The notes below the pieces were generated by a model that worked only from the letters and a program-made list of their open reading frames with translations, did not search any database and was not told where the DNA came from. 64,000 nucleotides of DNA, taken from NCBI RefSeq assembly GCF_004138215.1, contig NZ_RYYS01000050.1, positions 1 to 64,000 on the forward strand, written 5' to 3'. Source of the DNA: Anaerophilus nitritigenes (GTDB taxonomy: Bacteria; Bacillota; Clostridia; Peptostreptococcales; Thermotaleaceae). The stretch's first letter is position 1; every line of letters starts with the position of its first letter. A program made the position numbers and the translations under genes. Positions 2 through 46,255 of this stretch are shown piece by piece.

Positions 2-295
2 AGTGGAAGAAGTGCTACTGTATTTGATCCAAATGGAAACATTACAAGAGAAGAAATGGCAACGATTATTGGAAAAGTACTTACACAAAAAGGCAAAGAA
101 AAAGCAAATGTCAACGAATTAGAAAGGTTTAGTGACAAAATAAATATAGCTCCTTGGGCAGATGAGAATGTATCATTATGCGTAAAGGAAAAAATCATAA
201 ATGGAATGCCAGATAATACACTTATGCCAAAACAAAATGCCAATAGAGCTCAAGGTGCTGTAATGCTTTATAAACTCTATCAATCTATACAATAA
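2..295 (+). CDS. C-terminal end of an SLH-domain surface protein (5' end outside window)
   Basis: The frame is open from the first bases of the window, so this is the last 97 residues of a longer gene. It contains the end of one S-layer homology repeat (FDPNGNITREEMA), then most of another ending in NRAQGAVMLYKLY. SLH repeats bind pyruvylated wall polymers and hold exported proteins on the cell surface. The fragment matches the last two SLH repeats of the protein encoded at 15461-18256 almost residue for residue, so the two genes are paralogues, and both end in similar hairpin terminators. The upstream domains cannot be seen. From its neighbours I infer another toroid/DUF4430 surface protein. 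Confidence 0.85.
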   Translation, partial: SGRSATVFDPNGNITREEMATIIGKVLTQKGKEKANVNELERFSDKINIAPWADENVSLCVKEKIINGMPDNTLMPKQNANRAQGAVMLYKLYQSIQ

Positions 296-594: not shown

Positions 595-2832
595 ATGTCA
601 AATAAAAAATGGAGAAAGCAGTTAGCTTTATATCTTAGCTTTATCATGATTTTCTCAGTATTTAGTTCGATATGCGTCTGGGCAGATGAAGGGTTAAATC
701 AAGATATTACAAAAAATGAAGTTTTAAAAATTTCCAAAGAAGAAAATATGACTAAAACTAAAGAATCACTAAATAAAGTGGTTGAATATTATAGAAAAAA
801 TCAACCTACAATGCCAATGGATGATTGGGAAGCCTTTGTTGCTTTATGGGCAGCAGGAGAAAACTTTGAAAAATCTCCATGGAAAAATTATTCGTGGAAA
901 AAGAAAGATCCAGGTTTTAGTGCTACAGTTGGTGGTAACGATCATATTCATCATATTTTTAGTTTGTTAGGAGTAGGTAAAAATCCTGCAAAGGCATTCG
1001 AAACAAATAGAAATCTTTTTGCTGAATTAGCAGCTCAACAAAATAAAAAAGGAAGCTTTGGAACAATAGGTAAAACAGTATGGGCAATAGTTGCTTTAGA
1101 TGTAGGTGTAGAATTAGGGGTAGATGTAGGTGTATGGAATGAAGAAAATAGAGAAAAAGCTATTGAAGCATTAATAAAAGAACAAAATGACAACGGAAGC
1201 TTTGGATCTTTTAGTAATATTGATAATACAGGTTGGGCATTGATTGTATTATCAAAATCAAAAGGAGAAGAAGTACAAGAAAGTATTCAAAAAGCTAAAG
1301 AATACTTAAAGAGTATGCAGTTAGATAATGGGGCCTTTGGTGGAAAGGGTCAGTGGGATCAAGAAAATTCGAATAGTATTGCTTGTGCAATTCAAGGTTT
1401 GGTAGCAATCGGAGAGAATGTTGTTGATGCAAATGGATATTGGGCAGTAAATGGAAAAACCCCAGTAAATGCTCTTTTAAAATATCAAAATAGAGATGGT
1501 TCTTTTAGATGGAAATTAGATGATGGCGGATCTGTAGGTATGGCAACAAAGCAAGCCGCAATAGCTGTATGTGACATGGTTCATCAAAGTTCAACTTGGT
1601 ATAGATTAGGACAAATTAAATTTCAAGATGACACATCAAAACCAGAAATAAATAAAGAAGAATTAACTAAGGCAATAGAAGTAGCTAATAAAAATAAAGA
1701 TTCAGTAGTCATAAGTGTAGAGGGACAAGATGTATCATTAAAAGATGTGTGGGTAACAGAAAAAGATGTAAAAGATTATGTAACTGAAATAAAAAAAGCT
1801 CAAACAATATCTTATAAAGCAAATGCTACACAAGAAGAGGTAGACAATGCACTAGCTTTATTAAACATAGCTACACAAACGTTTAATAAAGCTAAGAAAA
1901 ATGGGAAAAAAGAAGGAGTAGAACAAGAATATGTAACTATATCTATAGAGAAATTTACTTTAGGACAAGGATACTACAAAGAGCCAATAAAAATGCCTTT
2001 GAATAAAGGCGATAATGGAGCAAAAATGATAACAAGGCTAATAGGAGAAGGAAATTATAAACATACAGGAAAAATTGATCGAGAATTTTATCTAGCTAAA
2101 GTAAGAGATGATGATAAAAGTCAAGTTAAAATTCCACAATATATTTTAGATAAAGTTGAAAAAGAAATAGGATCAAAAAAAGAAGAAGAGTGGCTTGGAG
2201 AATTTGACTATACTTCTATGTCTGGTTGGATGTATTCTGTGAATAATAAAATTGTTAATTATGGTTTTTCAAATTATATACCAAAGAATGGAGATGTTAT
2301 TAGATGTCAGTTTACTGTATATGGACTTGGTGCTGATCTTGGAGGTACAGATTTTATGGGAGAAGATCCTTATATTACTCCTGCTAATAAAGATGCTTTA
2401 ACAGCAAAAATTGCTGAGATTAACAGTGATTGGGCTAAAAATAAGATTCTTTCCAATACATTAGTATTAAAAGCATATCATCATGCCTATGATGTACTAA
2501 AAAATATGGAAGGCAGTCAAGAAAGTGTAGATGATGCTTTGTTACACCTTGATAAAGCATTAGTAGGCGAAGAAGAAAAACCAATAGAAATAGTAGTAGA
2601 GGGTTTAAATCATAATATGAAAGTTAATAAACCCAAAATGAGCTTTAAAGCTTATGCAAAAGACAATGAAAGTAGTATTGTTGTAATTCTTAATGATAAA
2701 ATAATAAAAGAACAAGGTGGACAATACAATGTTACCTTTAAAAAAGGAAAAAATACACTTATCATTAAAGCAGTAGATCAAGAAAATAAATATAATTCAG
2801 TAATAAAAATATCAAAACATATAATAGAGTAG
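595..2832 (+). CDS. Secreted transcobalamin-like protein (toroid + DUF4430), probable corrinoid-binding
   Basis: 745 residues with a strong ribosome binding site (AAGGAGGAAG). Residues 1-31 form a signal peptide (basic start, hydrophobic core, cut near VWA/DE). Residues about 55-340 are an alpha/alpha toroid with QxxxGxF-type repeats such as EQNDNGSFGSF and YQNRDGSFRW, as in squalene-cyclase-like and transcobalamin N-terminal domains. After a FIVAR-like helical stretch (about 350-440), residues 443-581 are a DUF4430 domain with the hallmark SGWMYSVNNK and NGDVIRCQFT. A second FIVAR-like segment and an Ig/cadherin-like domain (663-745) end the protein. Toroid plus DUF4430 is the domain order of intrinsic factor and transcobalamin, so I infer cobalamin or corrinoid binding. 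There are no SLH repeats, lipobox or sortase motif, so it may be released or held by a partner. No riboswitch is visible directly upstream. Confidence 0.8.
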   Translation: MSNKKWRKQLALYLSFIMIFSVFSSICVWADEGLNQDITKNEVLKISKEENMTKTKESLNKVVEYYRKNQPTMPMDDWEAFVALWAAGENFEKSPWKNYSWKKKDPGFSATVGGNDHIHHIFSLLGVGKNPAKAFETNRNLFAELAAQQNKKGSFGTIGKTVWAIVALDVGVELGVDVGVWNEENREKAIEALIKEQNDNGSFGSFSNIDNTGWALIVLSKSKGEEVQESIQKAKEYLKSMQLDNGAFGGKGQWDQENSNSIACAIQGLVAIGENVVDANGYWAVNGKTPVNALLKYQNRDGSFRWKLDDGGSVGMATKQAAIAVCDMVHQSSTWYRLGQIKFQDDTSKPEINKEELTKAIEVANKNKDSVVISVEGQDVSLKDVWVTEKDVKDYVTEIKKAQTISYKANATQEEVDNALALLNIATQTFNKAKKNGKKEGVEQEYVTISIEKFTLGQGYYKEPIKMPLNKGDNGAKMITRLIGEGNYKHTGKIDREFYLAKVRDDDKSQVKIPQYILDKVEKEIGSKKEEEWLGEFDYTSMSGWMYSVNNKIVNYGFSNYIPKNGDVIRCQFTVYGLGADLGGTDFMGEDPYITPANKDALTAKIAEINSDWAKNKILSNTLVLKAYHHAYDVLKNMEGSQESVDDALLHLDKALVGEEEKPIEIVVEGLNHNMKVNKPKMSFKAYAKDNESSIVVILNDKIIKEQGGQYNVTFKKGKNTLIIKAVDQENKYNSVIKISKHIIE

Positions 2833-3028
2833 AAGAATTATTTCATGAGTAATTATGATAAAAAATATAAATTTTATTGAATAATGTTTTATATTATGGA
2901 AGAATATAAAGAAAATTTTTAAAAATATGTAACATATTGGTTGAAAAAGAAACTAGAATATGAAATAATATTTATAGAGATGAATAAAATTATATTTGAA
3001 TAGATTCTTATATAAAATTACATATTAT

Positions 3029-3193
3029 TTTTTAGGTTCTTTGATGTATACATCAAAGATGAAAAAGGGAATTAGGTGAAAATCCTAAACGGTCCGGCCA
3101 CTGTAAGTGGGAAGCTACCTTTGATATACCACTGGGAAACTGGGAAGGTAAAGGAAAGCGTTGATCCACAAGTCAGGAGACCTGCCTAAAAAG
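3029..3193 (+). promoter_or_regulatory. Cobalamin (B12) riboswitch aptamer
   Basis: All the conserved boxes occur in order: GGGAA-TTAGGTGAAAATCC, ACGG-TCC, the core GGCCACTGTAA, then GGGAAG, and finally the B12-box AGTCAGGAGACCTGCC at about 3171-3186. The ends pair as P1 (TTTTTAGG at about 3029-3036 with CCTAAAAA at 3185-3192). It lies in the 706-base gap before the giant gene, with an intrinsic terminator 82 bases downstream. B12 riboswitches normally switch off corrinoid uptake or synthesis genes when adenosyl- or methyl-cobalamin is plentiful. It therefore ties the giant surface protein, and by inference this gene family, to corrinoid metabolism. Confidence 0.95.
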
Positions 3194-3274
3194 TGTAGCA
3201 TTTAACCTTCCGAGGAAAGGTGATATGCAAGGTAAAATAAGAAAATATAAATATAAGTGAAATGTACTTATGTT

Positions 3275-3316
3275 AAAAAAGCCTTGACTTTCATTAGGAA
3301 GTCAAGGCTTTTTTAT
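3275..3316 (+). terminator. Riboswitch expression-platform terminator
   Basis: A 16-bp stem with an 8-base loop (AAAAAAGCCTTGACTT / AAGTCAAGGCTTTTTT) ends in a T run. Its position after the B12 aptamer and before the giant gene fits a transcription-termination OFF switch. I could not identify the antiterminator pairing with certainty. Confidence 0.9.
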
Positions 3317-3363
3317 AGAAAAGTATAGATGTTTTTTTGTGATTTTATTTTAAACTTCACCCT

Positions 3364-3399
3364 TTGACAGATAAATTTTCGACAAATTTGTTATATAAA
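3364..3399 (+). promoter_or_regulatory. Possible second promoter with Spo0A-box-like site, downstream of the riboswitch
   Basis: TTGACA (3364-3369) precedes TATATA/TATAAA (3392-3399) at the unusually long spacing of 22-24 bases. Between them lies ATTTTCGACAAAT (3375-3387), whose complement contains TGTCGAA, the Spo0A box. Long spacers combined with 0A boxes occur at some Spo0A-activated promoters such as Bacillus spoIIG. If real, it would give transcription of the giant gene independent of the riboswitch. Inference from motifs only. Confidence 0.3.
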
Positions 3400-3432
3400 A
3401 TGATTGTAATCACAAAGGGAACATTTATACAA

Positions 3433-3463
3433 AAAGTCCTAATAAAATAAAAATTAGGACTTT
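3433..3463 (+). other. Leader hairpin before the giant gene
   Basis: AAAGTCCTAAT and ATTAGGACTTT form a perfect 11-bp inverted repeat with a 9-base loop, 75 bases before the start codon. It lacks a proper T run (TTTCCTATT follows), so it may stabilise the mRNA or act as a weak terminator. Confidence 0.5.
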
Positions 3464-3538
3464 CCTATTGCTTTTATTTATTATTATGAAAGGAGAAGAA
3501 GAATGAAAACAAAATTACAATAAAAAAGGAGGACGGTC

Positions 3539-6500
3539 ATGAAAAAATCTATTAGTATACTTTTAGCAGTTGCAATGTTTTTTTCGTATATACCAGGGAT
3601 TGACAATTTAATGTATGTTTATGGACAACAAACAGTAACAGATCATGTATATGAAAAAGAGAAAACGACAACTGAGGATGTCTATGAAGAGAATGGCTAC
3701 AAAAAAGAAGTAGAAGAGGTGATAGAAAAGGTTGAAATACAGCCTCTTATGGAAGAACCAAAGACATTAAATTATAAAAGTGAGATTGATGATGCACTAG
3801 AAAAATTAAAGGAGTATTATAAAAATGAATCATTAGATTACATATCAGCTATGGCATATCGTCATTCAAGTAAAAACTTAAATGAAGACATAAAAATTAT
3901 TAAGAACAATTTAAGAAAATATGAACCTAAAAATGAATTTAATTGCTATAAGGGAATCATGGAAGCTATTTCTATAGATCATGATCCTAGAGCTTTTGAT
4001 TATAAAGGAGATATTGTAAATTATGTAGATGTTCTTGCACAAAAGCAAAAACCAACAGGAGAATTTACTACTCTTACAGATGGATTATCCTATTCTATAC
4101 TAGCATTAGATTTGGCAAGTGCAGACTATGATAAAGAAAAAGCAGTAGAAGCTTTAAAAAATAAATTTGAAATAAAAAAAGATCAAGCTTATATAAAGGG
4201 AACTAGTAGTGCTGATTTAAAACAGACTGCTTTAGCTATGATTGCTTTGTCTAATCATAAAGATCATGTAGGAGTTCCTAATTTATTGAAAAAATGTGTA
4301 AATTATATAAAAGTATCTCAACAGAATGATGGAGGATTTGGAAATTATTCAACTGACCCAGAAACATTAGGAAAAGTAATTCAAGGATTGATTGCAGTAG
4401 AAGAAGATCCATTAACTGGAGATTATGTAAAAAATAAAAAAAACATAATGGATGTATTGATGGAATATCAAAATGAAGATGGAGGATTTAGAAAAGGTGC
4501 ATGGAAGGCTCCATCAGATACAAAATCTACAGAAGCAGCTTTTGCAGCCTTGGCAGATTTGGATAGAAATGAGTCTATGTATCATGCTTTAAAAATAAAG
4601 CTAGGAGATGTAGCATCTAAAATTGAGATTAAAGCAGAAAAAACTGAAATCATCAAAGGAAAGAGCATAAAACTTCAAGCTAAGGTTCTAGATAATGAAG
4701 ATAGATTGGTAACAGGACAAAAAATAAAATGGACAAGTTCTAATCCAAATATCTTAGAAATTGAAAAAGGAGTAGTTACAGCAAAAGAAAAAGGAGATTC
4801 AATTATCACAGCACAAATAGAAGAAAATGCTTCTATCAAAGGATTTATAAATATAAAAGTAGTAGATGCAAAGCCATCTTTTATAAAAATTTATTTAAAG
4901 GATCAACAGATCAAAGATATTAAAATCAAAAAAGATGAGATTATTGAAATTACTGCTAAAGTATTTGATCAAGATGAAGTAGAAATAAAGGATAAAGAAA
5001 TTATATGGAGCGTAGAAGATGAAAATAAGCTTGTAAAAATAGAAAAAGGAAAAATTACAGGCTTATCAAAGGGAAATACAAGTATAAAAGCTTTATGTGA
5101 AGGAATAGAAGAAATCTGTAATATAGAAGTTGTTACAATTAATGATATAGCAAAAGATGTATTAGATGAAGTAAAAGGTTTCTATCAAGATAAATCACAA
5201 TATTCTGAGATAGAGGCTTTAGGTTTAAGTTATATAGGAGAAGACAAAAAAGTAATAGGAGAAAAAATTAAAATAGATAATAATTTATATACTCCTAATG
5301 CTTATGCTAAAAATATAATGATGTTGATTGCAGCAGGATTAGATCCAAGGGATTATAAGGGACATAATTATGTAGAAGAATTGTCAAGATCTCAAAATGA
5401 TACAGGATATTTTAAAATAGGTAGTAGCTTTACTTATCCAACAAAGGCAGAAGATATGATTTTACCAATTATAGCATTAGATATGGCAGGTGCAGTATAC
5501 AATAAAGAAAAAGCAATAAGCTTTTTACAAAATACAGCAAAGACAGATAAAGATAGCAAATATTTTGATAAAAGCTATAATTATAATCAAATGGAAATGA
5601 CAGCTATGGCAATGATAGCTATGTCTAATCACATGGAAATAGATGGAGTAAAAGAGCTAGTACAAGAATGTAAAATATATCTTAGAAAATATCAAAGTAA
5701 AGAAGGCGCAATAACTGCACCATCTGGAAGTAATGGATATTTAGAAGATAATTGTAAAGCTACGTCAGTTACTATACAAGCTCTTTTATCAATAGAAGAA
5801 GATCCTTTTTCAGATGAGTTTAAGAAAAATGGAAACTCACTACTAGATGGACTACTAACATTTAAAAAAGAAAATAAATTTAAAGAAAAAAAATCTGATT
5901 TTATTACAGATGACAAAGCTACAGCTTTAGCTTTTGCAGCTATGACAGATATTTATACGGGTAAATCTATGTATAAAGAAATAAAGATACAAATAGGAAA
6001 CCCTGAAAAAGTAGAGATTCAAGCAGAAAACGATCAAAAAGAGCTCAAGATAGGAAAAAAATTAAAATTATCAGCAAAAGCATTAGATAAAGACGGTAAG
6101 CTTGTACCTTCTCAACAATTTACATGGTCTGTAAGTGATCCAGCTATTGCAACGATAAATGCAAACACAGGAGAAGTTACAGCTATAGGTTCAGGAACAG
6201 TAGTTATTACGGCTATGGTGAAAGATTTTAAAAGTGCTAAAAATACTTTTGAATTAAAGATTATTACTGTAAATCCTAACAAAATAGAAGTATCTGTAGA
6301 TCAAGATATTAAAGAAATAGAAGAAGGTAAAAAGATAAAAATCAATTCAAAGGTATATGATACAGATGATGATTCTGTTGAAAACTATCCTGTAGAATGG
6401 ACTGTTGCTCCTAATGATTTAGCAAGTATTGATTCATCGGGTATTGTAACAGCTCTAAAAGAAGGAATAATCAAAATAACAGGAACTGTACAAAAAGAAG

Positions 6501-9500
6501 ATGGACAAGAAATTCAAGGTGAAGTAACTTTAACAATTGTTAAAGGAAAAACAAATGAAGAAAAAATTAATGAAGCCATTCATGATGTAAAAGAATATTT
6601 TAACAAACAAGATTCATATGATTTTATCACATCTTTAGGACTTAGATTTACAGATGAGAATATAAGTGACATAAGTTCTAAAAAGAATATTTATTCCTAT
6701 AGAAATCTCGAAAATGATGCAAAAAATATTATTAATATTATTGCAACAAATGAAGATCCTAAAAATTATAAAGGTAAAAACTATATAGATTTTATTTTAA
6801 ATGATAAATCTAAGTTTTATAATGATTCTAATGCTGGATCTATAACAAAAGCTATCATTGCCCTTGATATGGCAGGAGAAAGCTATGAAGAAAAAGAAGC
6901 TATTGATGCTTTAATAGGAAAGATTACAAAGGATAATGACCAATACTATATAGCAGGAAGATTTGCTATAGAGGATACATCTTATGCATTGATTGCTCTT
7001 TCTAATCATAAAGAAAAATTAGGTGCACAAGAAGCTATAGAAGGAATTAAAAAATATTTAAAAGAACAACAAGATGAAAATGGATTCATTGAAAGCTGTT
7101 CAGATACTGCAATTGTCATTCAAGCTTTAATAGCAATAGGTGAAAATCCATTTTCAGATGAATGGACAAAAATTGATGGATACGGAAATAAAATTACTCT
7201 ATTAGATGCTATTTTATCATGTAAAGATGGGGAGCAGTTTAAATCAAAACCTTCTTCAACGTTTAAATCAAAACCTGCAACATCGTATTCATTAGCAGCA
7301 TTAGGAGATTTAGCTAAAAATAAATCAATGTATCATGAGTTAAAATATGTACCAGCAGGAAAAGCAAAGAGTATAAAAATTAACTCAGAGAATTTAAATC
7401 TTTTTGTAGGAGAAGAAAAATCTATAGAGGTACAAGCTTTTGATGAAAACAATGTATTAGTAAAAAATGCACAGATAATTTGGGAGAGCTTAACTTCTAC
7501 GATTGTGGAAGTTAAAGATGGAAAAATAAAGGCATTACAAATTGGAGAAGGAAAAGTAAAAGTAACATTACAAGAAAATAAAGATGTATTTGATGAAATC
7601 ACAGTAAAAGTTATTGAAAGTCAAGATATTAGCTTGAATGTAAAAGTAGCTATAGATAAATTAGTAGCTTTTTATGATCAACATGGCTCTTATGATTATA
7701 TGGCAGCATTAGCTTCCAAACATATAGGAGAAGAATTTAATGTAGATCAACAAAAAGTAGCGTCAAATTTAAGACTTTATAGAAAAGATTATGCAATCCA
7801 TTATGCAAAAAATATAATGGAAATTATAGCAGCAGGACAAAATCCTAGAGATTATAATCTAAAGGATGAAAAAGGAAATATTGTAGAAAGTAAAAACTAT
7901 GTACATAATCTTGAGAAGGCGCAAAAGAAAAACGGAGAATTTATAGTTCAACAAACAACAGATCAAGATAGTGTAGTTACTTTATCTTTATCTATTATGG
8001 CACTGGATATGGCAGATGGAAAATATAATGTAGAACAAGCTGTAAATAGACTTGTCAATATGATGAAAGATGAAAAATATCAAAAGGATGGTCTGTATAC
8101 AGAAATTGAAACAAAAGCATTAGCCATTACTGCTTTGTCTAAGCATAAAGATATAGATGGAGTAAAAGTTACTATTGAGGAATGTATTACTTATATTAAA
8201 GATAATCAAAATGAAGATGGTGGATTTGACCATGGTGGTTATAAAAACAATCCATTTGCTATAGGGACTGTTATTCAAGGACTTGTTGCAAATAAAATAG
8301 ATCCTATGAAGTGGGTCAAAAATGGAAAGAACATGGTACAAATTTTACTAGATCGTCAACTTGATAATGGTGGATTTGAATATAATGAGCAATTGCCTTC
8401 GACACCAAATAAAGAGATATTTGATGATTTTAAATGCACAGAAACGGCATTTGCAGCACTAGCAGATTTATATAAAAATAAATCTATGTATCACTCTATT
8501 GAAATTAAGAATGATGTAGATGATGAAATAGATGAAAAAATAAAAGAAGAAATAGAATTTTTAAATAAAGCGTATCAACAAAAGAAAATATTAGATTATT
8601 TATCTGCTTTATCAGGAAATTTATCAGGATTAGACAAACAATTGATACAAAATAAAATACCTGAAAATAAAAAAGCAGATAGAGCTCAGTTTGTATCAAA
8701 ACAAATTATGTGTTTAATCGGTGCAGGCTTAGATCCAAGAGGTGCATTGATCGAAAAGGATGAAGTGAAAAACTTTGTTCATGAGTTAGTATCTTCACAA
8801 ATGGTAAGTGGAGATAACAAAGGAGAATTTATACTAAAAGATAGCGATCAAAACTCTATTGAAGCTTTAGCATACTCTATCATAGCCCTTGATATGGCAG
8901 ATGGAAAATATGATCAAGAAGCAGCAGTAAAAAGACTTATTCAAATGCTTAATGATAAAGATTCTAAAACTTATAATGAAGTTACAACAGAAGCTTTAGT
9001 TTTAACAGCTTTATCAAGACATAACGATATAGATGAAGTAAAAGAAACAATTAAAAATTTAATACATTTCTTAAAATCTAAACAAAATGAAGATGGTGGA
9101 TTTGATACTAAATCAAGATCGTTAGGATTAAAAAATAGTACGATAGCAACAGGTAGAGTGATTCAAGCATTGATAGCAAATGGTATTGATCCTATACATA
9201 GCAAAGAATGGATAAAAAATGATCAAACTATGTTGGATGGGTTGTTAAAAAATAAAATATTACAAGACAATCCAGAAAAATGTGGTTATGGAAAAGGTGG
9301 AGGACAAGGAGAAGCATATTTACATGCTGATTCAACTCATCAAGCATTTGCAGCTTTAGTAGATCTTTATAATCACGAATCTATGTTTGAAAAACTTGCT
9401 ATCAAAAATGATGGACCAGAGATCACATCAAAAGAAAGAATTGATAAGCTCATTAAAGCAGTAAACTCCTACTATCAAACAGATTATTTTATACAAAACC

Positions 9501-12500
9501 AAGGAAATTTAAATGCCTTAGAAACAGCAACATTAAAAAGAGCAGGAGTAGATTTAAGTAAATGGAGTACAGATATAAAACATACTACAAAGTATGATAC
9601 AACCTTAAAAAATCTATCTAGTATCATTACGCAAGTATCTATTTTATTAGATATACAAAAAGATCCAAAAGATTTTGAAGGAAAGAATTTGGTACAAGAA
9701 ATTGTAGATAAGCTGGATCAAAGTACAAATCCAAATGAATATATCAATGCTGTAACAATTTTGGATAAATATAATGAAAAATATCCAGATCAAAAGGCAG
9801 TATATAGTATAGAAAAAACTATCAAAAAGATTATTTCAAATCAAACAGATGATGGAGGATTTGCACTAAGAAAAAATATATCAAATCCTAGAACTACAGG
9901 AGATGCATTGCTTGCATTAAGTAAGCACAAAGATATAGAAGGAGTAGAAGAAAGTATTAATAAGGCTGTATCTTATCTTCAATCTATCCAAAAAGAAGAT
10001 GGAGGATTATACGATAACGTATATATTACAGGATATCATGCAGATGTAGTGAGAGGACTTTTATCAGTAGAAGAAGATTTAAAATCACAAAAATGGATGA
10101 AGTCAGGCAAAAATCCAATAGATGCATTGTTTATACTATGGAAAGAAAATAACTCCTTTGATAATCAAAAAGGAGAAAGTATAAACAATAGAGGATGGAT
10201 AGAAGCTACACAAAAAGCATTGTATACATTGATAGACTTACAAGAAGCTGGATATGAAAATTACTATGTAAAAGATGTAAAAATATCAAGTGAGATTCAA
10301 GAACCAGAACAGACTAGTACTGTTTATACAGCTATTGTTGTACCAGAAAGCGGAAAATATGTAGCATATTCTAAACCACAACAAGTGACTATTAGTACAA
10401 AAGAGCATAATGGAGGACTTACTGCATTTGGAGCATTACAAGCTACTACTACTTTATATAAAGCCATAGGTGGATTTGTTACAGAAATATATGGCATCCA
10501 AAACAAAGGTATGGGTGGCTGGATGTTTACTTTAAACGGAAAAGTAAGTGACGAATATGCAGATAAAACTATTGTAAAAGATGGAGATCAAATTATTTGG
10601 TACTATAGTTCAGAAGGAATGGAAGGAAAAGTTCCAAGATGGGATGAAATAGAAGGTGAAATTTCTAAAGAATTAAAGCTTATTGTAGATGGAATCTCTG
10701 ATCAAATGATTGTAAATAAAGAAGAAATAGTATTTACAGCAAAAGCTTCAGAACAAGAAGTAAATATTATAGTAAAACTTGGGGATATAGTCATTAAACC
10801 AGATAAAGACCATCAATATAAGGTACTTTTACAAAATGGAGAAAATAATATTATTATAGAAGCAATACACAAAGAAAAGAAAATACAAAATGTATACAAA
10901 GTGATATATATAAAATCAAGCAAATTTGCAACAAAACTAATAGAGTATACACCAGCTCCAGGACAATTTATCAATTCAAAATTTGGAACGATAGAAGATG
11001 CAAAATCAACTTTAAATGGAAAAAATGGGTTGATATCTTTAGGAGGATTTGGAGGATCTATTGTATATGGTTTTGATCATCCAATTAAAAATAAAAAAGG
11101 AGCTTGTGATTTTAAAGTATATGGAAATGCATTTAAAGGTAATGAAGAACCTGCTGGCATAGCTGTTATGAAGGATGAAAATAAAAATGGACTAGCAGAT
11201 GATACGTGGTACTATTTATCAGGATCAGAATACAACAAAAAAGGAACTATAAAAAATTATCAAGTAACTTATAAAAATCCAAAAAGTGCAAAAGATGTAG
11301 AATGGATAGATAATCAAGGAAATAGTGGAGTAATCAAACAAAACAGTGATCATAAACAAGCTTATTATCCATCAAAAGAAAACTTTCCACATATTAACCA
11401 AAATGAATATACACTAAGTGGAATACGTATCAATACAAGAACTCCACAATGGGGATATGCAGATGTAACACCAGGTGGAGATGAAATGAATATTGACTGG
11501 GCAGTAGATGAGAATGGAAATAAAATAGACCTAGATGAAGTAGATTTTGTAAAAGTATATACAGCAGTACAAATGGATGCAGGTATGTTTGGAGAAGTAT
11601 CTTCAGAAGTATCAGGAATAGAAGTATTAGATAAAGTAGAAGAAGACCAAAACCCACTTGCAAAAGTTTCAGTTACTTGTGAGAAAGTCACTTCAAAAGA
11701 AGTAACTTTAAAATTCTCTACAAAGAATACATCAGCAATTGATCATTATAAAATATTTAGAGATCATTTTGATAAAGAAATAGCTATCTCTAAAAACAAT
11801 ATTTATATAGATAAAACAGTTGAACCTAATAAAGTTTATCAATATAAAATAAAAGCAGTAGATACTTTAGGCAATGAATCAGAGTTTAGCGATATATTAA
11901 AAGTCAAAACTTTAGCTGATGAAAACGGTAATGTTACACCGCCAGAGAATAAATCTATCAAAGTAAATGTAAGAGTAGAAGGAAATAAAAGTACAATGAT
12001 TCAACCAACAAAAGTATATCTAAGTGAAAGTGATTTAGATTTGAACAAATATGGTATTGATAGAATCTATAAAAACTATATGGCTATTCATCCGACAATA
12101 AAAACATTAGAAGAAAAAGGCATATCATATGATTGTAAAAATTCAGATTACAATTTTGTTACTATGATTAATGGATTAAAAATGAATACAGTCAACGAAG
12201 GAAAAGATGGTTGGATGTATTATGTAAATCACAAATTTGCAAATCGTGGATTAAGCGAATATTCTATTCATGATGGAGATAGTATAGTATGGTTTTTTGC
12301 TGAAGATCATACAAATTATTGGTATGCTTGGTTTGATAAGGAACAAATCAAAACAAAAACAGGACAAGACGTAGTACTAAATCTTCAAGGAAGTCATTAT
12401 GATATGGATAGTGGAAATGTTTTAACAACATCCATTCAGGATGCAACAATCCTTGTAAACAATGAAAAATATAAATGGAATGAAGAATTTGTAAAAACAG

Positions 12501-15286: not shown

Positions 15287-15324
15287 AAGATAAAGTAATA
15301 AAATGAATAAAAAAGATAAGTTTT

Positions 15325-15363
15325 AAAAAGAGAATTCTTTTATAAAAAAGGATTCTCTTTTTT
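15325..15363 (+). terminator. Terminator after the giant gene
   Basis: AAAAAGAGAATTC pairs with GGATTCTCTTTTTT and a T run follows, 39 bases after the stop codon of the giant gene. Confidence 0.85.
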
Positions 15364-15426
15364 GTGTGTGTAATACAAATAAGAAAATAAAACTCTTTAT
15401 ATACAATCACTACATTTAGGTTAAAG

Positions 15427-15455
15427 TTGAAATTATATATAGAATCAGTTAAAAT
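15427..15455 (+). promoter_or_regulatory. Sigma-A-like promoter abutting the third surface-protein gene
   Basis: TTGAAA, a 17-base spacer and TAAAAT form a near-consensus promoter. Transcription would begin at about 15462, which is at or after the first ATG (15461). Translation would then need to be leaderless or to start at the in-frame ATG at 15503. Confidence 0.5.
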
Positions 15456-15460
15456 ATACC

Positions 15461-18256
15461 ATGTGTTCAAACAAAATAATTAATTATTACATTTTTCTTA
15501 CAATGGTAAAAGAAAAATATCAACTCATTTTTAATACTTCAGCTGCAAATTATGCAAAAAATATTATGGCTTTAATAGAAACAGGACAAGACCCTAAAAA
15601 TATGGTAGATGAATTACTAAGTAAACAGACAATAGAAGGGAAGTTTATTGTTCAGGGATGGGATGATTATCCATCTACTCAAGCTTATTGTATTCTTGCT
15701 CTAGATTTATCAAATGCTGATTATGATACACAAAAATCAGTCAAATCTCTTATAAAATATCAAAATACAGATGGAACGTTTGGCGAATATAGAGATATAG
15801 ATACTTTGGCTATGTCTATTATGGGGCTTTCTAATCATAAAGACATAGAAGGCGTAAATGAAGCAATACAAAAGGCTGTACATAAATTACAGTTAGAAAA
15901 GAACAATATTATAAATAATGATAATGCAAATACATTAGCAACAGTGATTCAAGGGCTTGTTTCTGTAGGAGAAAATCCTTTACAGAGTCAATGGAGAGTA
16001 GATCAAAAAACTATGCTCAATGCTATGTTAAAGTATCAAAATGAAGGTAATTTTGGAAATGATTTAGCTACAGAACAAGTATTTGCAGCTTTATCTGATT
16101 TATATCAAAAACAATCAATGTATACAAAACAATCTATTTCTACAGAAGGTTTTGAAGATTATTTCATTTCTACTAAAAATGATGGATCAGGATCTGGAGG
16201 AGGCTCTATTGAACAAGGAGATGAAGCTTTTATTTCCATCAAAGGATATAATAATGATCCCAATATATCTAAAACAAAAATAAAATTGCAAAAAGGAGAT
16301 ACAGTTTTATCTGTAACAAAAAGAATTTTAAAGGATAAAAATATAAGCTATGTGTTAAATGAGCAAAAAAGTTATTTTAAGCGTATAGGAAAATATGGAG
16401 AATTTGATCAAGGAGCAAAAAGTGGATGGGAATATAAATTAAATGGAGAAAAAGTACAAAAAAGTGTAGATGATTGTAGTGTGAAAAATAAAGATGAAAT
16501 AGAGTGGATTTATACTACAGATTATACAAAGAGTTCTTCAGCAAATACAGAAGAAGATGAAATTACGAAAGAAATAGACAAAATACAAGATATTTTAAAT
16601 AATACAAATATAAATGAAGGAGATATTAAAAAAGCAGTAAAGAATGTAATAGATCAATTGAATAAAAAAGCAGAAGATATAAAAACAGAAGCGGATGCAA
16701 AAAATTTAGTATCTTATGGTAAAGAAATTTCTAACTCTATACAAAATGCTACAGAAAAAATAAAAAGTGAAGAAACAGCAAAAAATTTGCTAAAAGAAAA
16801 TGTAAGAATACTAAATATTTTAGCGAAATCTACAGAAAAACTATCGAAAGAAGAGAATCAAAAGGAAGTAAGTGAAGTTGTATCAAAAAATATTTATAAT
16901 ACTTTAAAATTAATCAATAAGGTAAATGATCCAAAAGAAGTAGTGAGTTTAGCAGGAAACATCATAGATGAAAGTGGAAAAGTATTAAAAGTCATAGGAA
17001 AAGAAAATGGAGAAGAAATAGCAAAAAGTATTATAGATATGGCTCAAAGTACAATCAATAAATGGAGTATAATACAAGTAAAAAAAATAGAAGATGAAAG
17101 TGAAAAATCAGTAGCTCAGCTAGATGAAAATATAATCAAAGAAACAGCAAAAAATATAGAAAATACTACAAAAGAGATAAAGAAAAAATTAAATAAAAAT
17201 GGTATTGAAGCTAATCTGATAGAAAATAAAATGATGATTCAAATACCAAGTATAAGCAAAAAAGAAGTAGAAACTATATTACCAGCAAATACAATAAAAA
17301 TATTAAAAGAAAACAATATAGAAAAAGTGATTATAAAAACAGAAAAAGCAGTGTTTACTCTTACATCCACTACGTTTGATGAAGTAAAAGACAATATTAT
17401 ATTAAAAGTAAAGGAAATAGAAAAAAATACATGGACTTTTTTAATACCAAAAGAAAGTATAGTAGTAGATTTGACAGCTCATATAGGAGAAAAATCTATT
17501 AAAGAATGTAAAGAAAAAATAAAAGTATCTATTCCATATAATGGAGAATTTAAAACAGGAGAAATAGTACAAGTATTTTATCTAAAAGACAATGGTACTA
17601 TAGAAAATATGGGTGGAGAATATGATTTAGATACAAATATGGTAACTTTTGAAACAAGTCATTTTAGTAAATACTTTGCTCAAAAAGTAGAAAATGGAGA
17701 AGAAATAGGATTTCATGATTTAAAAGATTATGAATGGGCAAAAGAAGCTATAGAAGAAATGGCTCAAAAGGGAATTATTAATGGAAGAAGTAAAGATGTA
17801 TTTGATCCGAGTGCATCTATTACAAGAGCAGAATTTGTGACTTTTATTACAAAAATGCTTGGATTAAATATAGAAGATATAAATATAAGCTTTACAGACG
17901 TAGAAGATTCTGCTTGGTATACTCCATATGTAGAAACTGCTTACAAAAATGGACTCATCAGTGGAAAAAGTGAAGCTGTATTTGATCCAAATGGAAAAAT
18001 TACAAGAGAAGAGATGGCAGTAATTATTGGAAAGGTATTGATACAAAAAGGATACACAAAGGAAAGTCTAGAGGAATTAGAAAGATTTAGTGATAAAGCC
18101 AATATAGCACCTTGGGCAAATGAGGATGTAGCATTATGTGTAAAAGAATCTATCATTAGTGGAATGACAGATAAAACATTTATCCCAAAAGAAAATGCAA
18201 ATAGAGCCCAAGCAGCTATAATGCTTTACAAATTATACCATTTAGTTGTAGAATAA
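15461..18256 (+). CDS. SLH-anchored toroid/DUF4430 protein, apparently 5'-truncated
   Basis: 931 residues from the first ATG; neither 15461 nor the in-frame ATG at 15503 has a ribosome binding site. Layout: toroid about 20-235 (AKNIMALIETGQDPKN, YQNTDGTFGEY), a Gly/Ser linker, DUF4430 at 256-356 (SGWEYKLNGEKV), a helical region 366-557, a beta domain to 744 and three SLH repeats from 748. The helical and beta parts closely match residues 3031-3421 of the giant protein. Unlike its relatives it has no signal peptide and lacks the first toroid helices (about 60 residues), so the original 5' end seems lost. As written it would not be exported by Sec, which argues for a decaying gene, although the remaining frame is intact and a good promoter sits upstream. 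A frameshift or assembly gap is possible. Confidence 0.65.
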   Translation: MCSNKIINYYIFLTMVKEKYQLIFNTSAANYAKNIMALIETGQDPKNMVDELLSKQTIEGKFIVQGWDDYPSTQAYCILALDLSNADYDTQKSVKSLIKYQNTDGTFGEYRDIDTLAMSIMGLSNHKDIEGVNEAIQKAVHKLQLEKNNIINNDNANTLATVIQGLVSVGENPLQSQWRVDQKTMLNAMLKYQNEGNFGNDLATEQVFAALSDLYQKQSMYTKQSISTEGFEDYFISTKNDGSGSGGGSIEQGDEAFISIKGYNNDPNISKTKIKLQKGDTVLSVTKRILKDKNISYVLNEQKSYFKRIGKYGEFDQGAKSGWEYKLNGEKVQKSVDDCSVKNKDEIEWIYTTDYTKSSSANTEEDEITKEIDKIQDILNNTNINEGDIKKAVKNVIDQLNKKAEDIKTEADAKNLVSYGKEISNSIQNATEKIKSEETAKNLLKENVRILNILAKSTEKLSKEENQKEVSEVVSKNIYNTLKLINKVNDPKEVVSLAGNIIDESGKVLKVIGKENGEEIAKSIIDMAQSTINKWSIIQVKKIEDESEKSVAQLDENIIKETAKNIENTTKEIKKKLNKNGIEANLIENKMMIQIPSISKKEVETILPANTIKILKENNIEKVIIKTEKAVFTLTSTTFDEVKDNIILKVKEIEKNTWTFLIPKESIVVDLTAHIGEKSIKECKEKIKVSIPYNGEFKTGEIVQVFYLKDNGTIENMGGEYDLDTNMVTFETSHFSKYFAQKVENGEEIGFHDLKDYEWAKEAIEEMAQKGIINGRSKDVFDPSASITRAEFVTFITKMLGLNIEDINISFTDVEDSAWYTPYVETAYKNGLISGKSEAVFDPNGKITREEMAVIIGKVLIQKGYTKESLEELERFSDKANIAPWANEDVALCVKESIISGMTDKTFIPKENANRAQAAIMLYKLYHLVVE

Positions 18257-18266
18257 AATAAATAAT

Positions 18267-18297
18267 AAAAACTGCTAGAATATGCTAGCAGTTTTTA
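18267..18297 (+). terminator. Terminator after the third surface-protein gene
   Basis: AAAAACTGCTAG and CTAGCAGTTTTT flank a 6-base loop just after the stop codon. It separates this gene from the ECF transporter operon. The 93 bases before ecfT contain no riboswitch that I can recognise. Confidence 0.85.
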
Positions 18298-18390
18298 TTA
18301 CAAAAGAAAAAGGTAAACACACGAAAGAAATCGCTATATGAAGAGCAATCGTATTTTTAAATTATATTTTAATAAAGATCAGGTGATAAA

Positions 18391-19272
18391 ATGAAATTTC
18401 ATCCATTAACAATGATATTGTTTTCTATAACTTTGCTATTTATGACCCTTGTATATTCTCATCCCGTATATATTGGTTCTATACTTTTATTTATGATTAT
18501 GAGTATATGCACTTTAGGAGAAGGTAAAAAGATCATAAGTAGCGTAAAGTACGGAATTTATGGAGCAATACTTATAATTATCGTTAATCCTTTAGTATAT
18601 CATGAAGGAAGAATGGTTATTTATGAAGGAATAAGACTTCCCATCATAGGAAGATTTAAAATTACTCTAGAAGCTTTGGCTTATGGTGGAAATAGTGCTT
18701 TAAAGCTCATTTGTATTTTATTAATCTTTGCTTTTTATGGAGTCATGACAGATCGTGATGATACTTTTAGTTTTTTTTCAAAATATGCTCACAAATTGAC
18801 ACTTACTTTATCTATGACCATTAATATGATTCATAGACTGAAGCTAGAGGTTTTAAGGGTAAAGGATGTAATGATCTTAAGGGGAGTCAATTTTAAAGAA
18901 AAAAAGATCATAAAAAGAGTAAAAGCTTATTATCCAATATTAAAGGTTATTTTTATATCCTCTTTGGAAGGATCTTTAGATCGAGCAGAGTCTCTTTATT
19001 CAAGGGGATACGGAAAATATATAAGAACTTCTTATTCAAAGCTTGAGATGAAGGGAAGAGATTATTTATTTTTAAGTTTAAATACTATTGTATTAGCGGT
19101 ATTCATATATGGATTATTGTCAGAAAAAGGATTGGTGCTGTTTTATCCTACTTTTACAGGTTTTCATATAGAGAATCTTTTATTTGTAATTTGGATAGAT
19201 GTAGCCCTATTTAGTTGTGTTTTACTATTATGGGGGTGTATGAGATGGAAATTTCTAAAATACAAGATTTAA
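18391..19272 (+). CDS. ecfT: ECF transporter transmembrane component EcfT
   Basis: 293 residues with AGGTGAT as ribosome binding site. It is a membrane protein with four to six hydrophobic segments and, in the cytoplasmic coupling part, two Arg-Gly signatures (MILRGVNF near residue 163 and SLYSRGYGK near 206). EcfT proteins use these to dock onto the two ATPase subunits and pass their movement to the substrate-binding S component. The gene overlaps the following ATPase gene, so the two are translationally coupled. The genes for all ECF parts lie together here, which suggests a dedicated (group I) transporter and not a shared one. Substrate is not visible from this subunit. Confidence 0.88.
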   Translation: MKFHPLTMILFSITLLFMTLVYSHPVYIGSILLFMIMSICTLGEGKKIISSVKYGIYGAILIIIVNPLVYHEGRMVIYEGIRLPIIGRFKITLEALAYGGNSALKLICILLIFAFYGVMTDRDDTFSFFSKYAHKLTLTLSMTINMIHRLKLEVLRVKDVMILRGVNFKEKKIIKRVKAYYPILKVIFISSLEGSLDRAESLYSRGYGKYIRTSYSKLEMKGRDYLFLSLNTIVLAVFIYGLLSEKGLVLFYPTFTGFHIENLLFVIWIDVALFSCVLLLWGCMRWKFLKYKI

Positions 19273-20816
19273 CTTATTATTATCCTAGAAAGTCAGAGCC
19301 TGCACTAGAAAAAATTAATTTATCTATAAAAGAAGGAGAATTTGTTCTTTTGTTGGGAGAGTCAGGATCAGGAAAATCTACATTAGGAAGAGTATTCAAT
19401 AAAATTGTACCAGAGTTTTATGGAGGAAAAATACAGGGAAATATAGACAATCAAGTAGAGGTTGGAATGGTATTTCAAGATCCAGAAAAACAACTTGTCA
19501 TGGATTGTGTAGAAAGAGAAATTGCTTTTGGGCTAGAAAATTTAGGGAAACCATATGAAATCATGAGAAAAAAAGTAATGGAGGCTTTAAGCTTTTTAAA
19601 TATATGGGATATTAAAGATAAAAAAACCTATGAGTTATCAGGAGGACAAAAGCAAAAGGTGGCAATAGGAGCCACTGTTGCGATGGGTTATCGTTTTTTT
19701 GTTTTAGATGAACCTACTTCTCAACTAGATCCAGTAGCAGCAGAGGAGATTTTACATATTTTAAAAAGATTAAATGAAGAGTTAGGATACACTATTGTAT
19801 TGATTGAGCAAAGAATTGACCGATGTTTTCATTTAGCAGATCGAGTGCTTTTTATGGAAGATGGAAAAATCGCATTTGATGGAGAACCACAAAGTTTTGT
19901 AAATTTTAGTTATGAAAATGATAAAAACTTTTCTCCTTCAGTCTCTGAGTATTTTATTAGAAAACAAAAAAGAGAGGTTCCTTTGACAATAAAAGAAGGA
20001 AGAAAAATATTAAGAAAAAAATTTTCTATGGATGATTCTACACCTTTTACATATGAAGAAGAAAAAATATCTAATGAAGAAGTTATATCTATTCAAAATT
20101 TATCTTTTACTTATGAAAATGGGAAAGAAGCTTTAAAAAAATTAAATTTAACTGTTTTTGAAGGAGAAGTTCTTGGAATTATGGGGGAAAATGGAGGAGG
20201 AAAATCTACTCTTCTTAAAAATATTTCAGGGCTTGTAAAACCTACAAAGGGAAAAGTAAAAGTAAAAAAAGAAGTAGGATATCTTTCTCAAAATCCAAAT
20301 GATTATTTATTTAATGATACAGTATATGAAGAATTAAAATATACATTAGATCAAAAGAACATAAAGGATTTGTCTAGAATTGATAAAGTTTTAAAGGATT
20401 TAGAGATTTTTCATTATAGAGATAAAAATCCAAGGGATTTAAGTGGAGGAGAAAAGCAAAGAGTAGCTTTAGGTTCTATACTAGTTATGGAGCCTGAGAT
20501 TTTGATTTTAGATGAACCTACAAGAGGACTAGATAGAAAACTGAAAGAAAGATTAGGAAAAATTATAAATGATTTAAAAAACAAAGGAAAAACTATTATT
20601 TTAGTAACTCATGATGCAGAATTTGTGTCAAAATATTGTGCTAGAGTATGTCTGATATTTGATGGAACTATTGCTCAAATAGGTTCTAAGTATCATGTAT
20701 TGACAGACGGAATTTATTATACTACTCAAATGAATAAATTATTTAGTGGATATATAGATCATATTCTTACTTTAGAGGATGCTTTAAAAGCTACCAAAGA
20801 AGAGGTGAAAATATGA
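19245..20816 (+). CDS. Fused double ATP-binding protein of the ECF transporter (EcfA-EcfA')
   Basis: 523 residues from the ATG at 19245, chosen because GGGGGTG lies 7 bases upstream; an in-frame ATG 30 bases earlier lacks a site. Two complete ABC ATPase domains are fused head to tail. The first has Walker A GESGSGKST (38-46), signature LSGGQKQ and Walker B FFVLDEPT. The second has GENGGGKST, LSGGEKQR and ILILDEPT. ECF transporters normally use a heterodimer of two ATPases, and here one chain supplies both. The start overlaps the end of ecfT and the stop overlaps the start of the S-component gene by 4 bases, so the three form one operon that powers uptake of one small molecule. Confidence 0.92.
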   Translation: MEISKIQDLTYYYPRKSEPALEKINLSIKEGEFVLLLGESGSGKSTLGRVFNKIVPEFYGGKIQGNIDNQVEVGMVFQDPEKQLVMDCVEREIAFGLENLGKPYEIMRKKVMEALSFLNIWDIKDKKTYELSGGQKQKVAIGATVAMGYRFFVLDEPTSQLDPVAAEEILHILKRLNEELGYTIVLIEQRIDRCFHLADRVLFMEDGKIAFDGEPQSFVNFSYENDKNFSPSVSEYFIRKQKREVPLTIKEGRKILRKKFSMDDSTPFTYEEEKISNEEVISIQNLSFTYENGKEALKKLNLTVFEGEVLGIMGENGGGKSTLLKNISGLVKPTKGKVKVKKEVGYLSQNPNDYLFNDTVYEELKYTLDQKNIKDLSRIDKVLKDLEIFHYRDKNPRDLSGGEKQRVALGSILVMEPEILILDEPTRGLDRKLKERLGKIINDLKNKGKTIILVTHDAEFVSKYCARVCLIFDGTIAQIGSKYHVLTDGIYYTTQMNKLFSGYIDHILTLEDALKATKEEVKI

Positions 20817-21445
20817 ATTATGGACTTCTATCAGTAGCAGTTATATTGATCTGTTTTATATTTGTTTTTATTTCTTATGAAAGGAAAAAGGTTTCAGTAA
20901 AAGAAATATCTCTTATTGCTACTTTAGCGGGTTTAGCAGGAGTAGGAAGAGTTCCTTTTGCAGCTCTTCCAAATGTACAGCCTACTACTTTTTTGGTAAT
21001 TATTTCAGGGTATGTATTTGGACCTTTTTTTGGATTTATGGTAGGAGCTTTTGCTGCTTTAGCTTCTAACTTCTTTTTAGGACAAGGACCATGGACTCCA
21101 TGGCAGATGCTTGCTTGGGGACTTTGTGGAGTAAGTGCAGGGGTTTTAAAGAAATTTTATCAAAATCCTTCAAGAATTATGATTAGTATGTTTGCGTTTT
21201 TATGGGGTTTTTTATTTGATTATATTATGAATTTGTGGCATTGGCTAGCTTTTGTATATCCACTTACACTACAAAGCTTTTTATTCACATATATGAATTC
21301 ATTTTATTTTGATTTGATGCATGCTATAGGAAATTTCTTTTTTGCTTATCTATTTGGAAAAGATTTTATTCATTTATTATCAAGATTTAAGGATAGAATT
21401 TCTTATACAGAAATACCTGTTGAAAAAATAAAAAACCTGCTTTAA
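20813..21445 (+). CDS. ECF transporter substrate-binding (S) component, probably for a corrinoid
   Basis: 210 residues with about six membrane segments: one at 4-21, then a typical S-component bundle. An AxxxA-type motif (ATLAGLAGVGR, near 37) would contact EcfT, and PNVQPTTFLVIISGYVFG followed by GQGPWTPWQML resembles unassigned ECF S components of Clostridia. Its start overlaps the ATPase stop (ATGA). S components decide specificity. The family is not one I can assign to a vitamin from sequence, but three toroid/DUF4430 genes and a B12 riboswitch directly upstream make cobalamin or a corrinoid precursor the best guess. From memory, S components of this kind recur beside DUF4430 proteins in Clostridia. 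Confidence 0.78.
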   Translation: MNYGLLSVAVILICFIFVFISYERKKVSVKEISLIATLAGLAGVGRVPFAALPNVQPTTFLVIISGYVFGPFFGFMVGAFAALASNFFLGQGPWTPWQMLAWGLCGVSAGVLKKFYQNPSRIMISMFAFLWGFLFDYIMNLWHWLAFVYPLTLQSFLFTYMNSFYFDLMHAIGNFFFAYLFGKDFIHLLSRFKDRISYTEIPVEKIKNLL

Positions 21446-45959: not shown

Positions 45960-46225
45960 CATAAAAAAACCTTCATCTCTATGAATAATATATTCATAGG
46001 GACGAAGGTATATTTTCGTGGTACCACCCTATTTTGCATAAAAATGCCTCTATCAGATCTAAGAAGACCTCAAATCCTAGCCATATATCGGTGGCAACCG
46101 GCCAAATCTACTAAATAGTTTCGAGATGGCTGCTTAGAAGTGAGTATTGTATACACCTTTGACGCTAACTTTCAGCAGCTGTTAGCTCTCTGTAGTCGAA
46201 AGAATAGTATTTTTTTCTTCATCAT
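45960..46225 (-). promoter_or_regulatory. T-box leader of brnQ, Leu (CTC) specifier
   Basis: Minus strand. Stem I begins with AGAGAGC; the specifier region reads AATA-CTC-ACTTC, placing CTC (Leu) at 46142-46144. The conserved T-box AGGGTGGTACCACG lies at 46017-46030, and its TGGT would pair with the ACCA end of tRNA-Leu. It is followed by the terminator hairpin (ACCTTCGTCCCTATGAA / TTCATAGAGATGAAGGT, then a T run) at about 45962-46010. Uncharged tRNA-Leu would favour antitermination and brnQ expression. Confidence 0.93.
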
Positions 46226-46255
46226 TGCATTATTATGTGTAATTGATTAATATGT

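Follow-up and report, generated by a model that had tools for sequence, protein, structure and literature searches.

How does a Gram-positive bacterium collect vitamin B12 outside its membrane? As far as literature searches show, the matter has been little studied, and it is raised by one end of a contig of Anaerophilus nitritigenes (NZ_RYYS01000050.1, positions 1 to 64,000; "the window" is this whole stretch of 64,000 nucleotides). Within its first 21.4 kb are a fragment of a protein with S-layer homology (SLH) repeats, three genes whose products carry toroid and DUF4430 domains, one cobalamin riboswitch, and genes for the T, AA', and S components of an energy-coupling factor (ECF) transporter. 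I propose that the window carries one example of a system for corrinoid uptake that is widespread, mostly among Gram-positive bacteria, a reading that I consider highly probable.

The transporter suggests what is transported. ECF genes do follow those for the toroid/DUF4430 proteins, as the initial annotation had it. On the plus strand, like every feature of the first 21.4 kb, there are T (18391..19272; Pfam CbiQ, 36 bits), AA' (19215..20816; ECF_ATPase_1, 365.5 bits, with two ATPase domains in one chain, seen as two stretches of ABC_tran, and a true start that is probably a later ATG), and the CbrT-like, putatively corrinoid-specific S (20813..21445). Although other S components have been solved too, a search of the Protein Data Bank (PDB) up to E 10 matches the S protein to a single entry, 6fnp_A (CbrT; E 2e-11), to which it is homologous over residues 25-198. 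That entry is ECF-CbrT of L. delbrueckii, and CbrT is a proven B12 transporter, for which both binding and transport were found, with cobinamide taken as well as cobalamin (PMC5997447). The two systems share a homologous S component, a T component, and two ATPase domains. They differ in that the T and AA' genes of the window adjoin S, with candidate surface capture proteins nearby, whereas in L. delbrueckii one ECF module is common to several S components and no extracellular partner is described in the portion of the paper drawn on here (PMC5997447).

Regulation points the same way. Gene 2 is preceded by a complete B12 riboswitch, as had been claimed: the aptamer at 3017..3203 matches RF00174 over the whole model (positions 1-189) with 129.1 bits against a cut-off of 31.5. 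Riboswitches of the RF00174 class sense cobalamins. This sensing has been described (PMC11477304), and the cobalamin riboswitches of C. difficile precede synthesis genes, a cobalt ECF transporter, and a BtuCDF-like system (PMC11477304). On the 3' side of the aptamer, at about 3274..3316, lies a terminator-like hairpin with a run of T (fold of 3150-3330, -49 kcal/mol, z -5.55), although a simple terminator scanner listed none in 2700-3700. By this fold, transcription attenuation is probable, and a strong hairpin with a T run after the riboswitch would fit an OFF switch that works by termination.

The three neighbouring genes were said to combine toroid and DUF4430 domains, two of them with SLH repeats, and Pfam together with a repeat profile of my own bears this out, save that the toroid of gene 3 is partial. 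Gene 1 (595..2832) encodes 745 residues with Pfam Prenyltrans (32.7 bits) and, at 2200-2316, DUF4430 (35.7 bits); the Pfam search gave no SLH match. Gene 2 (3539..15286) encodes a giant putative surface protein of 3915 residues with six toroids, Big_2, two DUF4430 domains (10415..10609, 53.7 bits, and 12104..12298, 54.5 bits), and three SLH repeats (approximately 14720..15283). It was searched with Pfam in four fragments, which gave 90.9 bits for the two DUF4430 domains together and 154 bits for the three stretches of SLH. Gene 3 (15461..18256), truncated at its 5' end, encodes 931 residues with DUF4430 (49.2 bits) and three SLH repeats (128 bits); its toroid, at residues 15-226, is found by my own profile and not reported by Pfam. 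DUF4430 is therefore over its cut-off in all three genes, toroid and DUF4430 are joined in genes 1 and 2, and three SLH repeats are present in genes 2 and 3. The N-termini of genes 1 and 2 resemble signal peptides, as judged by eye only.

Is the association peculiar to the window? A survey of 148 genomes of the order says that it is not. DUF4430 was found in 65, and loci were fetched for the 51 with listed positions; left out were the 14 with only weaker matches of unlisted position, as well as unlisted weaker matches in the surveyed genomes. The survey kept 149 of the 151 listed domains, two falling outside the fetched stretches. Riboswitches were counted with a model, R1, built from 21 riboswitches, most of them from loci later counted with it. 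Only hits above 30 bits were counted, at the cost of weak ones near DUF4430 in two genomes (G021 and G130). For 106 of the 149 domains there is a B12 riboswitch no more than 10 kb away, in every case on the same strand, and for 91 there is one upstream on that strand within this distance. If each distinct nearest riboswitch is counted once, 75 of 75 share the strand of DUF4430. By genome, 41 of the 51 have at least one DUF4430 domain with a riboswitch within 10 kb. The DUF4430 regions, 1.83 Mb in total, contain 94 riboswitches, and the control loci, 0.74 Mb, contain 4. None of the 40 control loci (30 BioY, 10 arbitrary) contains DUF4430 or a toroid, two contain SLH genes, and four contain a riboswitch, one of which (L257) adjoins a DUF4430 locus of the same genome.

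The linkage extends to the transporter. The surveyed genomes contain 33 CbrT-like S genes, spread over 32 of the 51, and every one has DUF4430 within 10 kb (30 of them also a toroid), always on the same strand. Within this order, the kind of survey proposed with the initial annotation thus comes out in favour of DUF4430 near B12 riboswitches and ECF genes. One gene order recurs: riboswitch, a lipoprotein of about 300 residues with DUF4430 (its lipobox called by a simple pattern), T, AA', CbrT, and a toroid protein. To judge by the encoded domains, the putative counterparts of the two halves of transcobalamin are here separate proteins, encoded around the importer. Names of the type "additional lipoprotein component of predicted cobalamin ECF transporter" appear in automated annotation and would denote this DUF4430 lipoprotein.

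Linkage of DUF4430 and toroid genes to other riboswitches as often as to those for B12 would have told against the initial annotation, and this was not seen. When 22 DUF4430 loci of my own choosing (14 positive and 8 negative by R1) were searched with Rfam, the two models agreed in all 22: the cobalamin class was found in the same 14, the thiamine pyrophosphate (TPP) class in 4, and no other riboswitch class reached the Rfam threshold. Per-genome riboswitch counts are lower bounds, at most 16 candidates having been scored under strict filters. Counted so, fifteen genomes have exactly one listed B12 riboswitch; eleven of these have DUF4430, and in eight of the eleven a riboswitch lies within 10 kb of it, its identity with the listed one being checked by coordinates for G111 alone. 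A separate observation concerns the TPP class: in G114 (L130:15141-15253), a TPP riboswitch stands 5' of a gene for 185 residues that shortly precedes DUF4430-ECF-CbrT genes, and the 20 kb examined there yielded no B12 riboswitch.

The same question may be put in reverse, starting from CbrT. The 80 best-scoring loci of at least 580 were taken, not a random draw, and at least two of them (L157 and L158) are also in the order survey. DUF4430 lies within 10 kb at 68 of these 80, a toroid at 58, and both at 56, all on the CbrT strand and none on the opposite one. Ten loci have neither, and in eight of those the contig offers less than 2.6 kb before CbrT. An upstream riboswitch on the same strand is found at 45 of the 80; among the 53 with 8 kb or more of upstream sequence, the figure is 41. 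The hosts include Moorella, Desulfotomaculum, Syntrophomonas, Paenibacillus, Bacillus, Clostridium, Lentilactobacillus, Chloroflexota, Actinomycetota, Thermoplasmatota, and others, and many of the loci come from metagenome bins. SLH repeats occur at only 27 of the 80, and therefore anchoring at the S-layer is one form among several.

Do these proteins look like B12 carriers? Two were modelled with AlphaFold2: toroid 6 of gene 2 with the first DUF4430 domain (model 1; predicted local distance difference test score, pLDDT, 84.6), and the orthologue of gene 3 from G040, a genome of the same genus (model 2; pLDDT 90.6). In both, DUF4430 has a helix, a hairpin, and strands; among the surveyed domains, which were chosen by the Pfam profile, a tryptophan is present in 149 of 149 and an aromatic residue at the assigned hairpin position in 139 of 145. 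For model 1, transcobalamin, intrinsic factor, and haptocorrin account for all of the 15 best Foldseek matches (E 1.9e-9 to 1.3e-7; the next, 3.7e-4). The same three families fill the first 15 places for model 2 (E 3.7e-10 to 2.1e-8, TM-scores about 0.5; the next, 7.0e-5). VIA-align covers both domains of model 1 over 308-328 residues (Z 16.2-17.1). With model 2, both domains align together with the carriers over 318-330 residues at a root-mean-square deviation (rmsd) of 5.4-5.9 Å: Z is 20.2 for intrinsic factor 2pmv (5.6 Å, 327 residues), 19.7 for haptocorrin (5.4 Å, 325 residues), and 19.1 for human transcobalamin (5.9 Å, 320 residues). No transcobalamin in the PDB was hit by sequence, either with the window proteins or with a toroid-DUF4430 profile, and so the structural link comes from the models. 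The comparison with transcobalamin that the initial annotation called for thus gives a divided answer: the carriers head the lists for both models, while their arrangement of domains is matched by model 2 and not by model 1.

From all this I infer how the system would work. When B12 is limiting, the riboswitch would permit transcription, and when it is replete, riboswitch and terminator would shut off the surface proteins. A toroid and a DUF4430 domain of the transcobalamin beta type, in one protein or in separate surface proteins or lipoproteins, would close around a corrinoid as transcobalamin does, the largest of these proteins being anchored at the S-layer by their SLH repeats. The CbrT-type S component would receive the corrinoid next, for import through the ECF module. 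There is precedent for a pair of separate halves, since the human alpha and beta domains, when produced as separate proteins, come together on cobalamin (PMC5599065).

Some of what was found tells against this reading, beginning with the window itself. Terminator-like hairpins stand between the riboswitch and the ECF genes, one between genes 2 and 3 (15325..15362; fold of 15310-15375, z -4.89), the other between gene 3 and T (18263..18300; fold of 18255-18315, z -7.45). The window therefore lends no support to the idea that the riboswitch at 3017 controls the ECF genes, and one B12-controlled transcript for all its genes is unlikely. Gene 3 corresponds to the C-terminal 919 residues (381-1299) of a 1300-residue protein of G040 (76% identity) and is without about 380 N-terminal residues, including the signal peptide and part of the toroid, so that its product is probably not displayed at the surface. 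The S component passes the Pfam cut-offs of the general ECF_trnsprt and riboflavin S-component families, both broader than the CbrT match, and weakly meets a folate-family model. Elsewhere in the order, 10 of the 51 surveyed genomes have no riboswitch within 10 kb of any listed DUF4430 domain. Proteins with DUF4430 first and the toroid after it also occur at CbrT loci, so toroid-then-DUF4430 is not universal. As for the structures, model 1 superposes on the carriers with an rmsd of 18-19 Å and therefore differs from them in the mutual arrangement of its domains, and the training of AlphaFold2 may have taught it how the carriers are arranged. The toroid alone, in both models, scores as well or better against terpene cyclases, for which reason the structural evidence is the domain pair and not the toroid. 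By sequence, too, the toroid-DUF4430 profile matches squalene-hopene cyclases best in the PDB.

Then there is the host, which carries genes for corrin synthesis. In one run are CbiD, E, T, F, G, and H, precorrin-6A reductase, a CysG-type dehydrogenase, and CobA, the last fused to a HemD-like part that falls below its cut-off. The gene content suggests that the host probably makes corrinoids itself, and, although CbiC, CbiL, and others were not sought, its corrin genes make it unlikely to be a B12 auxotroph. Nor does DUF4430 go with loss of synthesis: CbiD is found in 45 of the 65 genomes with DUF4430 and in 62 of the 83 without it (Fisher p 0.47), so that the presence of DUF4430 is not linked to the absence of CbiD, unlike the usual lack of synthesis stated in 2007 (PMC1796856). 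Since the host probably makes corrinoids and DUF4430 is not tied to the absence of CbiD, salvage of exogenous corrinoids by a producer is the likely setting. Capture of corrinoids at the surface feeding the S component, much as the initial annotation had it, remains the best supported account, through the CbrT match, the riboswitch linkage, and the carrier-like models; less of it stands where the S-layer is concerned, given SLH at 27 of the 80 loci and a third protein that is probably not secreted.

A producer might have little use for finished B12, and the main ligands could instead be incomplete or foreign corrinoids, such as cobinamide and other cobamides. This is a question of specificity within the proposal, and I think such a preference rather unlikely. 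The host's corrin genes (CbiD, E, T, F, G, H, CobA, and so on) mean that finished B12 need not be scavenged, and CbrT of L. delbrueckii accepts cobinamide (PMC5997447), but the riboswitch class senses cobalamins (PMC11477304), and eight genomes with one listed riboswitch (a lower bound) and a riboswitch near DUF4430 are without CbiD and would need complete cobamides or late precursors. Alternatively, the family captures corrinoids while the window's copy is a decaying remnant, in which gene 1, the giant, and perhaps the ECF genes still work. This too is compatible with the proposed system, and I find it about as improbable. The missing start of gene 3, the two hairpins that cut the ECF genes off from the riboswitch, and the lack of a small DUF4430 lipoprotein adjoining those genes all suggest decay, as does the island of G040, with 34 predicted genes and seven riboswitches where this genome has three riboswitches on three contigs. 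Against it, the open frames of genes 1 and 2 and of the ECF set are intact, the ECF proteins share 91-95% identity with those of G040 (T 94, AA' 95, S 91%), and other units are retained on two further contigs (C45 and C28); part of the apparent loss may be assembly gaps.

A more radical alternative is that the surface proteins bind something else (heme, another tetrapyrrole, a polysaccharide) or serve in the S-layer or in adhesion and do no more than respond to B12. There is indeed a resemblance between toroids and many carbohydrate-active and terpene enzymes, 4 of the 22 scanned loci have TPP riboswitches, and some loci have no B12 riboswitch; even so, the linkage to B12 riboswitches and CbrT is consistent in strand, the two-domain structural match retrieves B12 carriers first, and the toroids (168 examined) include none with a thioester motif and only 8 with the cyclase-like DxDD pattern. 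I regard this alternative as very improbable, and toroids that act as thioester or cyclase enzymes may be set aside on the same counts.

To return to the proposed corrinoid-uptake system, the toroids of gene 2 deserve a closer look. All six come from my own repeat definition and profile: 3782..4618, 5144..6010, 6563..7369, 7637..8527, 8534..9424, and 9434..10303, the last being the one modelled. Pfam Cobalamin_bind reaches 38.6 bits (cut-off 25) in the fragment 6539-10138, its best stretch in toroid 4. This might be taken for evidence in itself, but squalene-cyclase models score alike on the same toroids, and so the match is too weak to be used alone.

The idea of capture is not new. The initial annotation supposed that Gram-positive bacteria are credited only with BtuF or an S component, which overlooks Burroughs et al. 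(2007; PMC1796856), who defined the superfamily, found toroid fusions, a surface location, and CbiO/CbiQ neighbours in bacteria, and predicted transcobalamin-like B12 scavengers beside CbiO/CbiQ transporters. Their SLBB proteins are thus like the present ones in domain pair, surface location, transporter neighbours, and predicted role (PMC1796856). They differ in that hosts were usually without enzymes of B12 synthesis (PMC1796856), of which the present host has many. The words "riboswitch" and "S-layer" do not occur in the main text of that paper, and the part of it drawn on here mentions no six-toroid giants, multi-riboswitch islands, or MoxR/vWA operon (PMC1796856). Judged from listings and abstracts, no paper in the open-licence literature appears to tie bacterial DUF4430 or toroid genes to B12 riboswitches. 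What is added, then, is the riboswitch linkage, the CbrT importer, the six-toroid SLH giants, the multi-riboswitch islands, and the MoxR/vWA and nitrogenase-like neighbours described below.

Other systems offer partial parallels. NEAT-domain SLH hemophores are SLH-anchored proteins for cofactor capture, yet of unrelated fold and ligand. BtuG of Bacteroides also has a fold different from that of the toroid-DUF4430 proteins. According to part of the published accounts, BtuG/BtuB resembles the present system in that a surface capture protein feeds a dedicated B12 importer, and differs in being a Gram-negative outer-membrane system. A third parallel is offered by mammalian transcobalamin, intrinsic factor, and haptocorrin, the top Foldseek matches of both models, in which an alpha-toroid is likewise followed by a beta-grasp domain. 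The bacterial copies may be tandem, SLH-anchored, or lipoproteins, are often split between genes, and lie beside an ABC-type importer, whereas the animal carriers work through receptor-mediated endocytosis (PMC5599065).

How much of the system does this genome have? The window starts at the end of its contig, inside the C-terminal part of another SLH protein (2..295; SLH 58.9 bits). The SLH sequence found there also terminates contigs C28 and C45, and for that reason the island was probably split by assembly. By the sequence, the fragment is probably the end of a DUF4430-SLH protein at the open end of C28 or C45. DUF4430 occurs on these three contigs, and each has its own B12 riboswitch out of ten in the 3.06-Mb genome. 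Another, on C86 (130.7 bits), precedes a secreted-looking open frame that is cut by the contig end and has no Pfam match up to E 0.01; the two (L020:2-1278) are possibly a further island unit. On C52 (L022:6431-6607; 113.6 bits), the nearest downstream frame on the same strand is about 3 kb away, with frames on the opposite strand between, perhaps an antisense arrangement. On C75 (L026:2524-9000), a riboswitch is followed by frames resembling membrane proteins and by a very long, secreted-looking one that by eye is like a CobN-type chelatase. Elsewhere in the window (45995-46234, minus strand), a T-box leader stands 5' of a gene whose product, judged by eye, looks to be a carrier for branched-chain amino acids.

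In G040 the island is unbroken and occupies 92,127 to 183,060 of a single contig. These approximately 91 kb hold seven B12 riboswitches and 34 predicted genes of at least 80 residues, all on one strand, which encode DUF4430, toroid, PQQ-propeller, Big, and SLH proteins, with ECF T-AA'-S at the end. Also present are a MoxR/vWA operon, a papain-family protease, and a NifH-NifD fusion with a second NifD-like protein. The operon, named here from the copy on C45 (L017:6227-17271), runs DUF4430, three unnamed proteins (about 660, 230, and 500 residues), MoxR AAA, DUF58, BatA/vWA, and vWA, mostly with a toroid protein next. It is found in eleven other genomes (G040, G022, G085, G048, G065, G075, G017, G028, G045, G042, and G061). 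The first gene of the operon has a B12 riboswitch within 300 bases in 8 of the 12 and 5.7-7.2 kb upstream in 3, and none was found near it in G042. A MoxR-vWA machine within a B12 regulon was unexpected. It might be an ATP-driven device that strips corrinoids from very tight carriers of the transcobalamin type and hands them to CbrT, with the papain-family protease helping in some islands; I put this forward tentatively, doubting it more than I believe it.

The protease of G040 (L061:11541-13139) has a lectin-like domain and lies between two toroid-DUF4430 proteins, with homologues in G085, G048, G065, and G075. It recalls the release of B12 from transcobalamin in animals, which is by proteolysis. 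The nitrogenase-like pair of the same island (L061:16425-19902; a NifH-NifD fusion of about 739 residues and a NifD-like protein of about 431) meets no curated NCBIfam cut-off for NifH/NifD, Bch, or Cfb, and is matched in G085, G065, G075 (two loci), and G061. It might act on corrinoids or other tetrapyrroles. A further NifD-like pair of the present genome (C63, L278:4885-11107) stands beside an ABC transporter of the FecCD/BtuCD family, on a contig for which the genome scan lists no B12 riboswitch.

If the MoxR/vWA machine does what is suggested, bacteria would have an equivalent of the way in which animal lysosomes release B12, and the island would be more than an array for capture. Animal B12 carriers were proposed in 2007 to derive by transfer from low-GC Gram-positive bacteria (PMC1796856). 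Because DUF4430 and toroid genes are linked to B12 riboswitches and CbrT across many phyla, both that question of origin and the question of capture become directly testable: the split lipoprotein/toroid pairs are small and easy to express, and an E. coli complementation strain for CbrT exists (PMC5997447). The proposal would also assign a role to DUF4430, which the copy of Pfam used here still names a domain of unknown function, and it suggests that a probable producer of B12 can devote some 90 kb of its genome to the capture of corrinoids.

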